From positions 1 to 64,000 of the IMG/VR virus record IMGVR_UViG_3300047444_000577: 64,000 bases of DNA; one strand, written 5' to 3'. This stretch comes from a virus. The notes beneath the pieces are model-generated. The model saw only the letters and a program-made list of their open reading frames with translations. It searched no databases and was not told the origin of the DNA. How positions within the stretch are numbered: position 1 is the stretch's first letter; the number at the start of each line of letters is the position of its first letter. A program made the translations under genes and the position numbers. Shown piece by piece: positions 3,367 to 12,318 of the stretch.

Positions 3367-3655
3367 GGCTGGAGTCCCTTCGTATGAAGTAGAGGTAGCG
3401 GTGCCCGGCAGCCAGGGAGATCAGGAAGCCGATGTTGATGAGGGACCGGCTCGACGCTGTCGAGGTCCAGAACAGGGCGCAGAAGAGGGTCACGTTGGTG
3501 CTGTAGATGAACAGCGCTACGGCCAGCCAGCGCTCGATGGCGTGGAGTACGGGCCAGACCGGCAGGGTGGCCCGTAGCAGCAGGGCGGCGAATGCTGCCC
3601 CGGTAATCGCGTTGAGGATGCGACATACGCTGATGAACGTCAGGAAGGTGTTCAT
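3356..3655 (-). CDS. Small integral membrane protein with three TM segments
   Basis: 99 residues from ATG 3653-3655, preceded by GGAG (TGGAGACCCT then ATG). Three hydrophobic stretches (about residues 3-28, 43-64 and 74-93) suggest three membrane helices with a basic C-terminal tail (FIRRDSSHER). The start overlaps the stop of the HAD-like gene (ATGA) and the end overlaps the next start by 11 bases. It could be a small holin-like or membrane-remodelling protein, but two other membrane proteins near 33.3-34.2 kb are better holin candidates. It holds the only out-of-frame CTTCATAC (3382-3389). Confidence 0.7.
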   Translation of the reverse strand: MNTFLTFISVCRILNAITGAAFAALLLRATLPVWPVLHAIERWLAVALFIYSTNVTLFCALFWTSTASSRSLINIGFLISLAAGHRYLYFIRRDSSHER

Positions 3656-4146
3656 AGGGTCTCCAGGAAGGGGCGCTGGTCTTCTTCGCGTAGTGCTCGT
3701 TGTCGCTCCACCTCGTCGACCAGTTCCGACCAGGGGGTGACGGTCTCCCGGTAGTCGGGGCGGAAGCGGGGGGAGGAGTAGTTGGGGTGCAGGTAGTTCA
3801 GGACCCCGGTGCCCCGGCTCATCACGTGGGCGGCGATCTGCGGGTTGGGTTCGATCAGCAGCTCTACGTGGCATCCGGCCTGACGTAGCCGGGACAGTTG
3901 CTGCATCCGGGCCTCGGAGGGGTCCTCGGGGTCTCTCAGGTGCGGGACGCCGAGGTAGGTGTGCTTGTCGAAGCCGTTGACGTGCAGCCAGTGCTTGACC
4001 GCGTCGGTGTCGGTGCGGTCGGTCAGGACAGCGACCTTGTATGCCTCCGCCAGGCCCAGGTACAGCCGGTGGCCCTGGGTGATGACGCCTTCGCCGACTT
4101 CTTTGGCCAGCACGCCCTCCAGGACGATGGCCACGGTGGCGCTCAT
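3652..4146 (-). CDS. HAD-like protein, degenerate (candidate)
   Basis: 164 residues starting ATG 4144-4146, overlapping the end of the nucleotidyltransferase gene by four bases. The N-terminus (VAIVLEGVL) sits where HAD phosphatases have DxDGVL but both Asp are missing, and VAVLTD could be motif II. The rest describes a Rossmann-like fold. If it is a HAD relative it lacks the catalytic nucleophile and may bind rather than hydrolyse a phosphorylated ligand. It pairs with the nucleotidyltransferase upstream. The family assignment is weak. Confidence 0.45.
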   Translation of the reverse strand: MSATVAIVLEGVLAKEVGEGVITQGHRLYLGLAEAYKVAVLTDRTDTDAVKHWLHVNGFDKHTYLGVPHLRDPEDPSEARMQQLSRLRQAGCHVELLIEPNPQIAAHVMSRGTGVLNYLHPNYSSPRFRPDYRETVTPWSELVDEVERQRALREEDQRPFLETL

Positions 4147-8110: not shown

Positions 8111-8659
8111 CTACCTCCACTGGTCCGGCGAGTTGTATAGAGACGCCGACGGCAGCAGCTTCTTGAGCCGCTGCTGGCGGACTGGGTCGATCTCGGCCAT
8201 GACCTCGGAGATCCCGTACTTCTGCTGCAGCGCGGCCATCTCGGCGGGTGACAAAGCGTTGACTTTGCCACCGTGGGCCAGGCGCTCGACGGGATTGCCC
8301 TTCTGCGTCCACTTGAGGCCCTTGGCCTGGTAGACCAGACCGGCCTGCGGATTGACTCCCCCGGTGTCGGGCCACGAGTAGTCGCCGTTGTCGAGCTTGT
8401 CGCCCTTATGTACACCGCGCTGGTAGGACCGGTCGTTCAAGCGCTTCTGGACGCCCTTCAGCAGGCGGTCCTGACGACGGTCGGTGATCGTTCCCAGGTA
8501 GCCGTCGGGATACTCCGCCGACGGGGCTCGGGCACCCATGGCGGCCCGCCGGGCATCCAGCGGGTCGCGGAAGGTGAGCGCGTCGGTACCGGCTCCACCA
8601 TTGGCCCGCACAATGGATCCGGGCTGGCCGTCGGCGAGGTATTGCCAGTTACTGCTCAT
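8111..8659 (-). CDS. Unknown protein, possible minor virion component
   Basis: 182 residues, Gln-, Arg- and Asp-rich, soluble, with no clear domain. Features include DALTFRDPLDARRAAMGA near the N-terminus and a helical C-terminus (EMAALQQKYGISEVMAEI). It sits in the middle of the small-gene cluster between spoVS and the endolysin. I do not recognise a family. Confidence 0.65.
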   Translation of the reverse strand: MSSNWQYLADGQPGSIVRANGGAGTDALTFRDPLDARRAAMGARAPSAEYPDGYLGTITDRRQDRLLKGVQKRLNDRSYQRGVHKGDKLDNGDYSWPDTGGVNPQAGLVYQAKGLKWTQKGNPVERLAHGGKVNALSPAEMAALQQKYGISEVMAEIDPVRQQRLKKLLPSASLYNSPDQWR

Positions 8660-8673
8660 GGATGCGCTGCTCC

Positions 8674-9009
8674 CTACGCTCCCTGGCGGTACTGACGCCG
8701 GAGGTAGAAGTCGCGGTTGCCGATGGCCGACGGCACGGTGACGGTGTTGCGCTGGACATCGTTGGCGGCAGCCGCGTTGGCCGCGTACAGTGTCGCGGTC
8801 GGGTGCAGGGAAGCACCCATGCGCTCCTGGATGTTCGCCTTGTGCGAGGCGGTAGCGGCCTCCAGGAACCCACCCTTGGCCTCACCGGTCTTCTTGACCG
8901 ACTTGCCCTTGATGGGCTTGGCCACGTTGCCGAGGGTCGCGGCAGAGGTGCCCATGGTCGGCCGCAGCGACGGGTTGTCCGTCGACACGATGCTGTTCTT
9001 CTTGGCCAC
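8674..9009 (-). CDS. Small basic Ala/Lys-rich protein
   Basis: 111 residues from GTG 9007-9009, chosen because AAGGAG lies eight bases upstream. The N-terminal half is Lys/Ser/Thr-rich (PIKGKSVKKTGEAKGG), the second half Ala/Asn-rich (LYAANAAAANDVQRN). Such composition is seen in nucleic-acid-packaging or internal virion proteins, but this is only a guess. Next gene follows 14 bases after its stop. Confidence 0.6.
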   Translation of the reverse strand: MAKKNSIVSTDNPSLRPTMGTSAATLGNVAKPIKGKSVKKTGEAKGGFLEAATASHKANIQERMGASLHPTATLYAANAAAANDVQRNTVTVPSAIGNRDFYLRRQYRQGA

Positions 9010-9019
9010 GAGGGCTCCT

Positions 9020-9295
9020 TTATCCGCCGATGGTTCGGTAGGGGTTCTTGTCGATCCACTGCCGCTGGTCGTATGTCTGGCTCGACGCACCGTTGGGTGT
9101 CGGGGCGGTCCCTCCGCCAATGCGCCGCCGGTCGTAGTCGCCAGTGGACAGGCCGTTGCTGGAACCGCGCACCTGCGCCTGGTCGAAAACCGAGGTCGCA
9201 CCGAAGGAAACCGGCTGGACCGGTGCGGACGGATACTTTGTCTCCATTGCACCGGCTGAGAATGAGCCGACGCGACCGTCCGCTACACCATCCAT
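9020..9295 (-). CDS. Small protein of unknown function
   Basis: 91 residues from ATG 9293-9295, which has GGAGG five bases upstream; an in-frame GTG at 9305-9307 is the alternative. Gly/Ser/Thr-rich with a C-terminal QTYDQRQWIDKNPYRTIGG. First gene of the small-gene cluster after spoVS. No family recognised. Confidence 0.6.
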   Translation of the reverse strand: MDGVADGRVGSFSAGAMETKYPSAPVQPVSFGATSVFDQAQVRGSSNGLSTGDYDRRRIGGGTAPTPNGASSQTYDQRQWIDKNPYRTIGG

Positions 9296-9356
9296 TTTCG
9301 CCTCCACAGGATCACCCTCCAGTGTAAGTACGGAGGGGATAACTCTGGGAATTGCG

Positions 9357-9653
9357 TCAGTGCACGAGAATGCGCAGCGTCAGGGCGCTGATCTCTCCGT
9401 CGGGCATCTGCACGGTGGTGAAACCGGGGCGGCAGTCGAGGACGATTCCCCGAGGTGCCACGAAACTGTTGGCGATGGCGATGGCCTTCATGGACTGGTT
9501 CACCGCACCGGCTCCGATGGCGCGCAGGGTCACCCGCTTCCCGTCGTAAACGGCATGCGAGATCGCGCTGGCCAGACTGGCGGCAGAGGACGAGGACTTT
9601 ACCCGCAGGGTGGCCTCGTTACCGCCCCCCTCGTCGTCGATTTGAACAACCAT
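9357..9653 (-). CDS. spoVS: SpoVS-family protein
   Basis: 98 residues. From residue 14 the sequence follows the SpoVS (stage V sporulation protein S) family: TLRVKSSSSAASLASAI, then the hallmark AIGAGAVNQSMKAIAIA at 45-61, then FVAPRGIVLDCRPGF. In Bacillus and Streptomyces SpoVS affects septation and sporulation; the fold is Alba-like and may bind nucleic acid. The 12-residue N-terminal extension is acidic and Gly-rich. It sits alone between the terminator at 9724-9760 and the small-gene cluster. A phage copy could alter host development or simply bind RNA or DNA. The family call is firm, the phage role is unknown. Confidence 0.85.
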   Translation of the reverse strand: MVVQIDDEGGGNEATLRVKSSSSAASLASAISHAVYDGKRVTLRAIGAGAVNQSMKAIAIANSFVAPRGIVLDCRPGFTTVQMPDGEISALTLRILVH

Positions 9654-9723
9654 TGGTGTCTCCTGTTATTCCGAGTAGCATCTTTTCGAGAATACGGTCG
9701 GACAGGAAAGCCGTGATAATGAC

Positions 9724-9760
9724 AGCAGGCCCCGGGGTTGGCAATCACCCGGGGCCTGCT
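9724..9760 (-). terminator. Intrinsic terminator hairpin after endonuclease VII gene
   Basis: A 13-bp inverted repeat (AGCAGGCCCCGGG and its complement) with an 11-base loop lies just after the stop of the endonuclease VII gene. The region 9660-9723 between it and spoVS probably holds the promoter for spoVS, but I see no convincing -35/-10 pair. Confidence 0.75.
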
Positions 9761-9773
9761 GCGTATCTAGTTG

Positions 9774-10208
9774 TTACTCCGGCGCGTAGAAGGTGCCGAT
9801 GGCCAGAGCGGGAGGGTTCAGGAGGTAGTCCTTGGCCCGGTCGAAGAACTGCGGGTCGTCGCGAGCATGGCCGAGCAGGGTGTTGCACGGTCGGCAGAGC
9901 AGCCCGCGCACGATCAGGGTCTTGTGGTCATGGTCGACCGACAGTTTCCTGGTCTTCCCCGTTGCCCGCCGACAGAGGGGGCAACGGCCGTCCTGGTGGG
10001 CGTAGATCCGGTCGTAGTCCCCGTCCCCGAGCCCGTAGACCCTCTGGGATCGTTTCTCGTGAGCGGCCTTCTTGCGCCGGTCTCTCTCCTCGCGCCAGTG
10101 GGTGGCGCATCGGGGTCCGGGGTTGGGGGCGGGCCTGCGCTGCCGGGCAGGTGGTGGGAAGCCTCCCCACTCGGCAGCGCAGTCCTTGCAGACCTTTGGC
10201 TCCGTCAC
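9774..10208 (-). CDS. Recombination endonuclease VII-like (HNH/His-Me)
   Basis: 144 residues. The core matches the T4 endonuclease VII family: CPLC at 76-79, VDHDH at 91-95 with the catalytic metal ligands, and LLCRPCN at 103-109, so four Cys bind a structural zinc. A further Cys-x2-Cys (CKDC, 7-10) and an Arg/Lys-rich linker precede it. Family members resolve branched DNA during packaging or act as mobile HNH nucleases. In an operon with the gene upstream (overlap of four bases), it more likely serves DNA debranching, but a role in intron spread is possible. Confidence 0.85.
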   Translation of the reverse strand: MTEPKVCKDCAAEWGGFPPPARQRRPAPNPGPRCATHWREERDRRKKAAHEKRSQRVYGLGDGDYDRIYAHQDGRCPLCRRATGKTRKLSVDHDHKTLIVRGLLCRPCNTLLGHARDDPQFFDRAKDYLLNPPALAIGTFYAPE

Positions 10209-10544: not shown

Positions 10545-11171
10545 TCAGGCCTGCGCGAGGATGTTGTGGACGGTGGTATGAAGCGTGTTGAGGTCACCGT
10601 TGTTGTTCAGGTGCACGTCGAACCACCTGTCCGGGAGGGGCTTCTCCGACCGGTGGTCGTTGACCGCGCCGTAGCCGGGCCGCTCGACCTTGATGAGCAG
10701 CGCGAGGTTCTTGTCCAGGGCCTGGTGTTCGTTCTCGAAGCGCAGGTCAGTGAAGACGTACCGCTTCTCGGGGTTCAGGTTCTTGAAGGCGGCGTTGACC
10801 CACACGTCCTGGGAGATCAGTTCTCGGCCGACCTCGGTGCCGAGGACCTGGAGCATGCGGCGGATCTCGCCGTCGAGGCTGCGCTTGGCCTCTTCCCAGC
10901 CGATCTCGTCCACGATGTCCTTGACGCGGAACTCGCGGCCGTAGGAGTCGCATCGGACGATGGGGTTGAGGATGTAGAGGGCGTTGCGCAGGACGTCGGC
11001 GAAGGCGCGGCGCTCGTAGCCGTACTCGGCCAGGATCTTGGCGATGGCGTCCTTGCCCGTGCCCGGGTAGCCGTGCAGGCCGACGAGCCTCGGCAGCCGG
11101 TCCAGGATGACGTCCTGGCGGAAGGCCTTGTTCAGGGCCGCGTCGGTGATGGTGGCGGTGTTGGTGGTCAA
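10545..11171 (-). CDS. Deoxynucleoside monophosphate kinase
   Basis: 208 residues. A P-loop GYPGTGKD at 34-41 is followed by a helix and RAFADVLRNALYILNP, the pattern of phage dNMP kinases (T4 gp1-like P-loop kinases) that phosphorylate dNMPs to dNDPs. The later FTDLRFENEHQAL strand-turn is the usual 'D-x-R' catalytic region. It acts in the cytoplasm beside ThyX and the class II ribonucleotide reductase to supply dNTPs. The C-terminus carries the dispersed word at 10576-10583. Confidence 0.85.
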   Translation of the reverse strand: MTTNTATITDAALNKAFRQDVILDRLPRLVGLHGYPGTGKDAIAKILAEYGYERRAFADVLRNALYILNPIVRCDSYGREFRVKDIVDEIGWEEAKRSLDGEIRRMLQVLGTEVGRELISQDVWVNAAFKNLNPEKRYVFTDLRFENEHQALDKNLALLIKVERPGYGAVNDHRSEKPLPDRWFDVHLNNNGDLNTLHTTVHNILAQA

Positions 11172-11611
11172 CGCAGTTCCTCAGTGGTGGTGTCGTTGGT
11201 GTCGGCAGTCGGGGGGTTCCACGGACCGACGGGGTGCTCGGCAGGCACCGGGTCGAGCCCCATGCTGCTGAGGGCGGTGTCCATGACCACGGGGATCTTC
11301 CACAGCGCCTGACGGGCCCGGACGACGTCCTCGTTGCGCGCGTTCTCCAACTGGACGAGCGTTTGGAACTGGCCATGCCAGCGGCCCGTCATCCAGTCGG
11401 TCTTGACGATGAGCGGAGTCACCGCAGTGACAAGGTTGGTCGCCTGGCTCTCGGTCTCCTTTACGCGTGCTTTCGCGGCGAGGAGTTCGATGCGGGTCAG
11501 CCGGTACTCGTCGGTCAGCGTTTCGAGTCGCTGCTGCAGCCGGTAGATGACCCATCCGCTGGCGGCGATGGCGCACAGGAAGACCCAGATGACTACGATT
11601 GCGGCGATCAC
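11168..11611 (-). CDS. Membrane-anchored coiled-coil protein
   Basis: 147 residues. Residues 1-23 form one hydrophobic helix (MIAAIVVIWVFLCAIAASGW), then a coiled coil of about 45 residues (LQQRLETLTDEYRLTRIEL) and a polar C-terminus. The start overlaps the ThyX stop by four bases and the stop overlaps the dNMP kinase start. Topology suggests a type II membrane protein with a cytoplasmic or periplasmic-facing coil; spanin-like function is unlikely in a Gram-positive host. Function unknown. Confidence 0.65.
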   Translation of the reverse strand: MIAAIVVIWVFLCAIAASGWVIYRLQQRLETLTDEYRLTRIELLAAKARVKETESQATNLVTAVTPLIVKTDWMTGRWHGQFQTLVQLENARNEDVVRARQALWKIPVVMDTALSSMGLDPVPAEHPVGPWNPPTADTNDTTTEELR

Positions 11612-12318
11612 GGGGCGACCCTTCCGTTGGCGTTCCAGGCGACGTAGGTGTGCGGGAAGTAGTTGGCGAACCGGTACTCCATGTGCCGCGCGACCATCTC
11701 GATCTCCCGCAGCGGGTAGGACGGGAAGTGCGCGTCCGCGTCCGTGGTGCGCAGGCTCAGGAAGTGCATGAGCGAGCGCGGGTTGCAGGTGGCGTAGAAG
11801 GAGGTGAAGAGGTTGAGCGGCAGGACGTTGCGGGCGACCTCCCTGGCGATTCCCGCGCGGAGCATCTGCTCGTAGGCTCCCCAGGCGACGTGGATTACCT
11901 CGTCGTTCACCCGGTCCAGCAACTCGTGCTGGTCAGGGGTGCCGGGAACGAAGGAGTACTCCCCCGGCTTGCCCTTCTGGCGCAGGTTTCGCTCCGGGCC
12001 GGGTACGTAGAAGACGGGCTCCAGTTCCTTGTACCGGCCGCTGGTCTCGTTGTAGGACCATCCGACGCGATGACGCATGAACTCTCGGGCCACGAAGATG
12101 GGGGCCTCGACCAGGAAGGTCATGGAGCCGTGTTCGAACGGGCTGCCGTGGCGGTTCTTCATCAGGTAGTTGATGAGTCCCTGGGCCTCCCCCGACTCCG
12201 CCGAAGCGGAGCCGAGGGTGGACACGCGGGCCGCCTTGCAGATCAGAGTGTCGCTCCCGGCCAGGGAGTCCGGTACGAGCGCCGCCGAGACGTCGGAGCG
12301 GGTCTTGAGGAGGGTCAC
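11608..12318 (-). CDS. thyX: Flavin-dependent thymidylate synthase ThyX
   Basis: 236 residues. The ThyX signature RHRxxSxNExSGRY is present as RHRVGWSYNETSGRY at 82-96 with a two-residue variant spacing, and GSPFEHGSMTF (58-68) and CNPRSLMHFLSLR near 180 complete the FAD- and dUMP-binding surfaces. The enzyme makes dTMP from dUMP with methylenetetrahydrofolate and NADPH. Length is normal for the family. It overlaps the RNA ligase gene upstream and the membrane protein downstream by four bases, so translation is coupled. Confidence 0.95.
   Translation of the reverse strand: MTLLKTRSDVSAALVPDSLAGSDTLICKAARVSTLGSASAESGEAQGLINYLMKNRHGSPFEHGSMTFLVEAPIFVAREFMRHRVGWSYNETSGRYKELEPVFYVPGPERNLRQKGKPGEYSFVPGTPDQHELLDRVNDEVIHVAWGAYEQMLRAGIAREVARNVLPLNLFTSFYATCNPRSLMHFLSLRTTDADAHFPSYPLREIEMVARHMEYRFANYFPHTYVAWNANGRVAP

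Follow-up and report, generated by a model that had tools for sequence, protein, structure and literature searches.

A phage SpoVS subfamily encoded beside exchangeable Holliday-junction resolvases

We describe a spoVS-family gene of a contractile-tailed phage that adds a member to an already known phage subfamily, which is set apart by an acidic N-terminal tail and by linkage to exchangeable Holliday-junction resolvases. Phage SpoVS probably has a part in how the phage handles DNA or RNA rather than in sporulation of the host, because it is a standard gene of its phage group, appears to be missing from most of the hosts, and almost always lies beside a junction-cutting enzyme.

The gene and the phage that carries it

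We analyzed a window of 64,000 nucleotides, which is part of a viral record of 98,440 bp (IMGVR_UViG_3300047444_000577, positions 1 to 64,000). The window has a G+C content of ~65%, and all genes predicted by a simple gene call are on its minus strand. Among the gene products called in the window are terminase large subunit, tail sheath, DNA polymerase and a RecA/UvsX-like recombinase, as well as ribonucleotide reductase, ThyX, deoxynucleotide monophosphate (dNMP) kinase and a GH25 lysozyme. Based on the terminase, tail sheath, DNA polymerase, UvsX-like recombinase and related genes, the virus is a contractile-tailed phage. An earlier note on this DNA had proposed a SpoVS homologue carried by a phage at 9357-9653; the phage location is borne out by the viral record with these genes, and the span is exact, the strand being minus (Table 1). 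Named relatives of the window phage (BRock type) infect Streptomyces. The downstream genes at 8674 and 8111 are referred to below by these coordinates.

Table 1. Features of the spoVS region in the window
Feature	Position	Strand	Remarks
spoVS-family gene, 98 aa	9357..9653	minus	ATG 9653, stop 9357; SpoVS domain residues 15-95
Acidic N-terminal extension, MVVQIDDEGGGNEA, residues ~1-14	9612..9653	minus	precedes the domain; disorder predicted for residues 1-10
Shine-Dalgarno AGGAG of spoVS	9660..9664	minus	read from sequence
Leader inverted repeat	9661..9707	minus	arms 9695-9707 and 9661-9673; 3' arm over most of the Shine-Dalgarno
Strong GC hairpin, resolvase/spoVS intergenic	9723..9761	minus	probable terminator of the upstream unit; window copy without T-run
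Endonuclease VII-type Holliday-junction resolvase, upstream neighbour	9774..10208	minus	PF02945 E 5.3e-26; phrog_307 E 1.3e-62
Deoxynucleotide monophosphate kinase	10545..11171	minus	profile matches
ThyX thymidylate synthase	11608..12318	minus	profile matches
Downstream co-directional gene, no function assigned	9020..9307	minus	start possibly 9295; conserved in window-type relatives
Downstream conserved gene, no function assigned	8674..9009	minus	PTMGTSAA motif
Downstream conserved gene, no function assigned	8111..8659	minus	served as independent anchor

SpoVS membership and predicted fold

The matches of the window protein to the SpoVS family are far beyond chance, and the Pfam, PHROG and structure searches place it there, as had been claimed. 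The Pfam SpoVS profile (PF04232) was matched with E 1.9e-22 and 79.2 bits (cut-off 24) over positions 2-82 of 83, phrog_35646 ('sporulation protein') with E 9.8e-36 over positions 8-92 of 93, and the T. thermophilus SpoVS 2eh1 with E 1.7e-11. NCBIfam, which may contain no SpoVS model, gave 0 matches at E <= 1. Residues G47, A48, N52, Q53, K56, G69 and F78 are invariant across 61 SpoVS sequences, and the window protein conforms to this pattern.

The AlphaFold2 model, built for the monomer only, has a mean pLDDT of 89.9 and a pTM of 0.79. The top Foldseek matches of this model are the SpoVS structures 2ek0, 2eh1 and 9a7h (E ~1e-9, TM 0.81-0.93, rmsd 1.1-1.3; TM 0.81-0.90 for 2ek0 and 2eh1), followed by archaeal Alba/Ssh10b structures (TM 0.57-0.61, ~15% identity). 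The fold of phage SpoVS as modelled is Alba-type. Alba proteins bind both DNA and RNA. The earlier note had offered, besides a sporulation role, that of a nucleic-acid-binding protein reused by the phage, and the predicted Alba-type fold makes this the better of the two readings, the binding itself being what we infer from the fold. SpoVS was also assigned to the Alba superfamily in a published survey (PMC11621453).

The phylogeny of host and phage SpoVS suggested by the earlier note separated the actinophage type from the cellular set. A branch with an SH-aLRT support of 100% divides this tree: 29 cellular sequences lie on one side along with five others, and the actinophage type lies on the opposite side together with two Bacteroides-type phages on long branches. 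The alignment behind the tree has only 93 columns, and Firmicutes are over-represented in its cellular set.

Acidic tail, basic core and known relatives

The acidic N-terminal extension noticed earlier proved real and is absent in the cellular SpoVS compared. It has a median of 15 residues and a net charge of -4 in phage SpoVS (n=38 sequences, many of them near-copies) versus a median of 3 residues and a charge of -1 in cellular SpoVS (n=28). In the AlphaFold2 model residues 1-10 have pLDDT < 50, hence the predicted disorder. The core has a pI of ~10 in the four phage SpoVS checked versus ~8.1 in two Bacillaceae SpoVS. Judging from the sequences compared, the acidic extension is a trait of the phage SpoVS subfamily.

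Homologues from Streptomyces phage BRock (gp51, annotated as 'sporulation protein') and from LuckySocke, Alone3, GiJojo and pSt2308 belong to the same subfamily (phrog_35646) with 71-76% identity. BRock-type phages share the cassette order of the window, a resolvase, SpoVS and then the 8674 and 8111 homologues, but their upstream resolvase is RuvC-like whereas that of the window is an Endonuclease VII, and the acidic tail is longer in the window protein (~15 versus 10 residues). Cellular SpoVS (Bacillus, Thermus; PF04232; 2EH1, 2EK0) has the domain, the fold and the core AIGAGAVNQ..KAIAIA in common with the window protein at ~40% identity; however, it lacks the acidic extension, has a less basic core in the two proteins checked, is encoded beside rny and ymdB, and falls on a separate side of the tree.

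Conservation of SpoVS in the phage group

SpoVS is near-core in this phage group. Using gene 8111 as an anchor independent of SpoVS, we found SpoVS upstream of it in 79/79 loci among the best 80 listed in IMG/VR, and the dNMP kinase and ThyX genes, within limited flanks, in 48 and 26 of these 79 loci, respectively. In a second anchor set, which partly overlaps the first, SpoVS was present in 70 of the 73 testable loci among the matches listed. Each scan covered the best 80 loci, so that distant relatives are under-sampled. A RuvC-like gene is kept and SpoVS is lacking in two loci (L327 and L349), and in one locus (L324) neither gene was recognisable.

SpoVS is also found in phages of Stenotrophomonas and, as a related copy, in phages of Bacteroides, which does not sporulate. 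Several plasmids of Priestia megaterium and P. aryabhattai (H24-H32) carry a spoVS gene as well. The sequence MT835471.1 (L152; 89,123 bp, 'Bacteriophage sp.') was dropped as phage evidence: it carries purA-ymdB-spoVS, and because of these neighbours is probably a bacterial fragment.

Linkage to exchangeable resolvases

A Holliday-junction resolvase was found close upstream of SpoVS, that is within 1.5 kb, in 83/83 non-identical loci of the group, a descriptive result; other sequence intervenes in a few loci (L003, L184, L200). The resolvases belong to four unrelated types, namely RuvC-like in 63 loci (most of them assigned with a profile built in-house from six members), Endonuclease VII in 10, PDDEXK in 9 and RusA in 1. 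The upstream gene is RuvC-like in BRock-type phages and in the Herbidospora locus and the prophages described below; a PDDEXK enzyme, labelled in PHROGs as RusA-like Holliday-junction resolvase, in L004, L006 and L019-L023; and a true RusA in L212. By parsimony, ~10 replacements of the resolvase type took place on a tree of SpoVS, 8111 and 8674, a quick tree with several long branches. The open-licence literature that we searched yielded no paper linking SpoVS to resolvases.

Beyond these types, the gene upstream of SpoVS in a gut phage of the Bacteroides type (L153) matches another resolvase profile, phrog_2002, and an HNH-containing homologue occupies the slot before SpoVS in Bacteroides phage BS162P1 (L147). 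In a viral contig of the Firmicutes type (L034), SpoVS comes right after a Gam-like end-protection gene.

Two side observations concern the Bacteroides-type loci. In BS162P1 (L147 4832-5836) the HNH region is seemingly inserted in a resolvase-like gene, the L153 counterpart of which (3405-3815) is uninterrupted; both genes directly precede SpoVS, and queuosine genes then follow in BS162P1. A queuine tRNA-ribosyltransferase-like ORF of L153 (5180-7378) is far longer than its BS162P1 counterpart and appears to be interrupted by an intein-like segment.

Among the functions considered for phage SpoVS, we favour nucleic-acid handling near DNA resolution, on account of the predicted Alba fold, the basic core, the acidic tail and the position by a resolvase gene. 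During late processing of the phage DNA, the protein would bind nucleic acid, DNA intermediates being its likeliest targets. It would act when the junction resolvase of the adjoining gene cuts the branched products of replication and these pass on to packaging. The acidic tail may tune this binding or recruit partners, by analogy with the acidic tails of single-strand-binding proteins. We consider the chances that an Alba-fold SpoVS with a basic core and an acidic tail acts in this way to be evenly balanced; here we infer the nucleic-acid binding, the formation of a dimer, the link to resolution and packaging, and the timing. Against this reading, two genes can stay neighbours without being functionally coupled, and in the window a probable terminator lies between spoVS and the resolvase gene. 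Moreover, resolution is not strictly SpoVS-dependent, since L327 and L349 retain only the RuvC-like gene.

A more general and somewhat doubtful proposal is that phage SpoVS is a common partner of junction resolvases, which binds or organises branched DNA for several unrelated enzymes. Such a role would explain why SpoVS stays while the adjoining resolvase is exchanged.

The place of cellular spoVS after rny and ymdB, genes of RNA turnover, points equally to RNA, and for this reason RNA regulation is ranked next after DNA resolution. Phage SpoVS would then be a post-transcriptional regulator that binds host or phage mRNA and adjusts its stability or translation. This reading fits the gene orders rny-ymdB-spoVS, seen in a Bacillus genome, and ymdB-spoVS, seen in a Chloroflexota MAG, as well as the presence of an Alba-RNA complex and of RNase P/MRP Alba-fold subunits in the Foldseek list. 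However, phage SpoVS lies beside resolvases and a nucleotide/recombination block, not beside RNases, and we regard the RNA reading as doubtful.

Leader, hairpin and transcription unit

In the window phage, the GC hairpin that follows the resolvase gene (z -4.6; 0/200 shuffles were as stable) is a probable terminator, downstream of which spoVS would begin another transcription unit. Hairpins of diverged sequence occupy the same position in window-type and BRock-type phages and in some other relatives. In many more distant relatives the hairpin is weak or absent, and in three loci (L226, L228 and L231) no gap is left between the RuvC gene and the SpoVS gene, which abut or overlap; thus, spoVS begins its own unit in some members of the phage group but not in others. 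The isolated transcription unit proposed earlier holds on one side, where the strong hairpin cuts off the upstream gene, but is less well defined on the other, where co-directional genes begin 50-60 nt downstream.

The leader of spoVS contains an inverted repeat, and an invariant TATTCTC (9688-9694) is located between its arms in the window and the relatives. In an alignment of 14-15 relatives, 88.3% of cells were paired and the covariation score was 0.122 versus 0.054 for shuffled alignments (0/500 shuffles), and slid controls scored lower than the true register. On its own, the repeat is only a little more stable than its shuffled versions (z -1.8). It is possibly a helix that sequesters the ribosome-binding site or, equally, an operator. 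In read-through RNA from upstream the repeat would pair and close the ribosome-binding site of spoVS; if TATTCTC is a -10 element, RNA initiated at this point would be missing the upstream arm and would be translated. Some late genes of phage T4 are built in this manner, with a leader that closes the ribosome-binding site in read-through RNA. The sole sigma-70-like match of the spoVS upstream region falls in the hairpin region. The sequence CGTATTCTCGAA was considered as a shared late promoter and rejected: it is exact only at spoVS, and its near matches in the window are weak and few in number (5 found versus 1.97 expected).

Being the first gene ahead of a conserved downstream cluster, spoVS might also encode a component of the virion or a DNA-compaction protein. 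Produced along with the downstream unit, this protein would cover or condense the phage DNA, for packaging or while packaging proceeds, in the manner of archaeal Alba. The Alba fold and the basic core agree with this, but no profile match of known function ties the downstream proteins to the virion, and we consider a virion or compaction role an improbable alternative to nucleic-acid handling near DNA resolution.

SpoVS in host genomes and the sporulation reading

Pfam SpoVS was found above cut-off in only one of 395 Actinomycetes genomes, that of Herbidospora galbida. Its contig of 110 kb has ThyX-like, dNMP kinase and RuvC-like genes and the 8674 and 8111 homologues next to this copy, and these neighbours identify the copy as belonging to a phage or prophage. 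The contig (L037; NZ_SZQA01000033.1, 110,447 bp) carries the SpoVS cassette, roughly matches these phages in length, and is probably a whole phage or an extrachromosomal prophage. In a chaplin-rich genus, taken to be Streptomyces from its chaplin content, two of 296 genomes have SpoVS above cut-off, both in a RuvC-SpoVS-8674/8111 cassette. Because all three above-cut-off copies sit in phage-like cassettes, the sampled Actinomycetes and Streptomyces-type hosts appear to be without a SpoVS of their own. Weak SpoVS-like matches below cut-off, covering profile positions 10-58, were seen in ORFs of 332-783 codons in six Actinomycetes genomes (L120-L125).

Phage spoVS as such is already known; it has been reported as an AMG and has its own PHROG. 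Copies on viral contigs were called sporulation AMGs by Trubl 2018 (PMC6172770) and in the ETNP survey (PMC8940887), and the passages of these two sources that we consulted infer a sporulation role and make no mention of resolvase linkage. A sporulation AMG supposes a homologous cellular gene in the host lineage, and no such gene was found outside phage-like loci in the sampled Actinomycetes, to which our argument from host absence is confined.

The earlier note had suggested that the phage copy could alter host septation or sporulation, which would require the protein to mimic or disturb a host SpoVS and so delay these processes. The family name and the published AMG calls speak for such a modulator of host development, and so does the fact that the cultured relatives infect sporulating Streptomyces, some of them with a WhiB-family gene nearby. 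However, in the sampled genomes host-side copies occur only in phage-like loci, nearly all sampled loci of the phage group have the gene, and SpoVS is also carried by phages of Stenotrophomonas and of the non-sporulating Bacteroides. For this phage subfamily the genomic context argues against a sporulation role; we therefore rejected it and judge modulation of host development to be very unlikely.

Implications

We know of no molecular function established for SpoVS despite its conservation across many bacteria, and viral copies are classed among the sporulation genes because of the name. If phage SpoVS were a general partner of junction resolvases, the still unexplained cellular SpoVS would be worth testing for a role on DNA as well. 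The presence of spoVS on viral contigs should not be read as manipulation of host sporulation. A phage lineage in which SpoVS is kept beside changing resolvases offers a specific function, unrelated to sporulation, that is open to testing in culturable phages.
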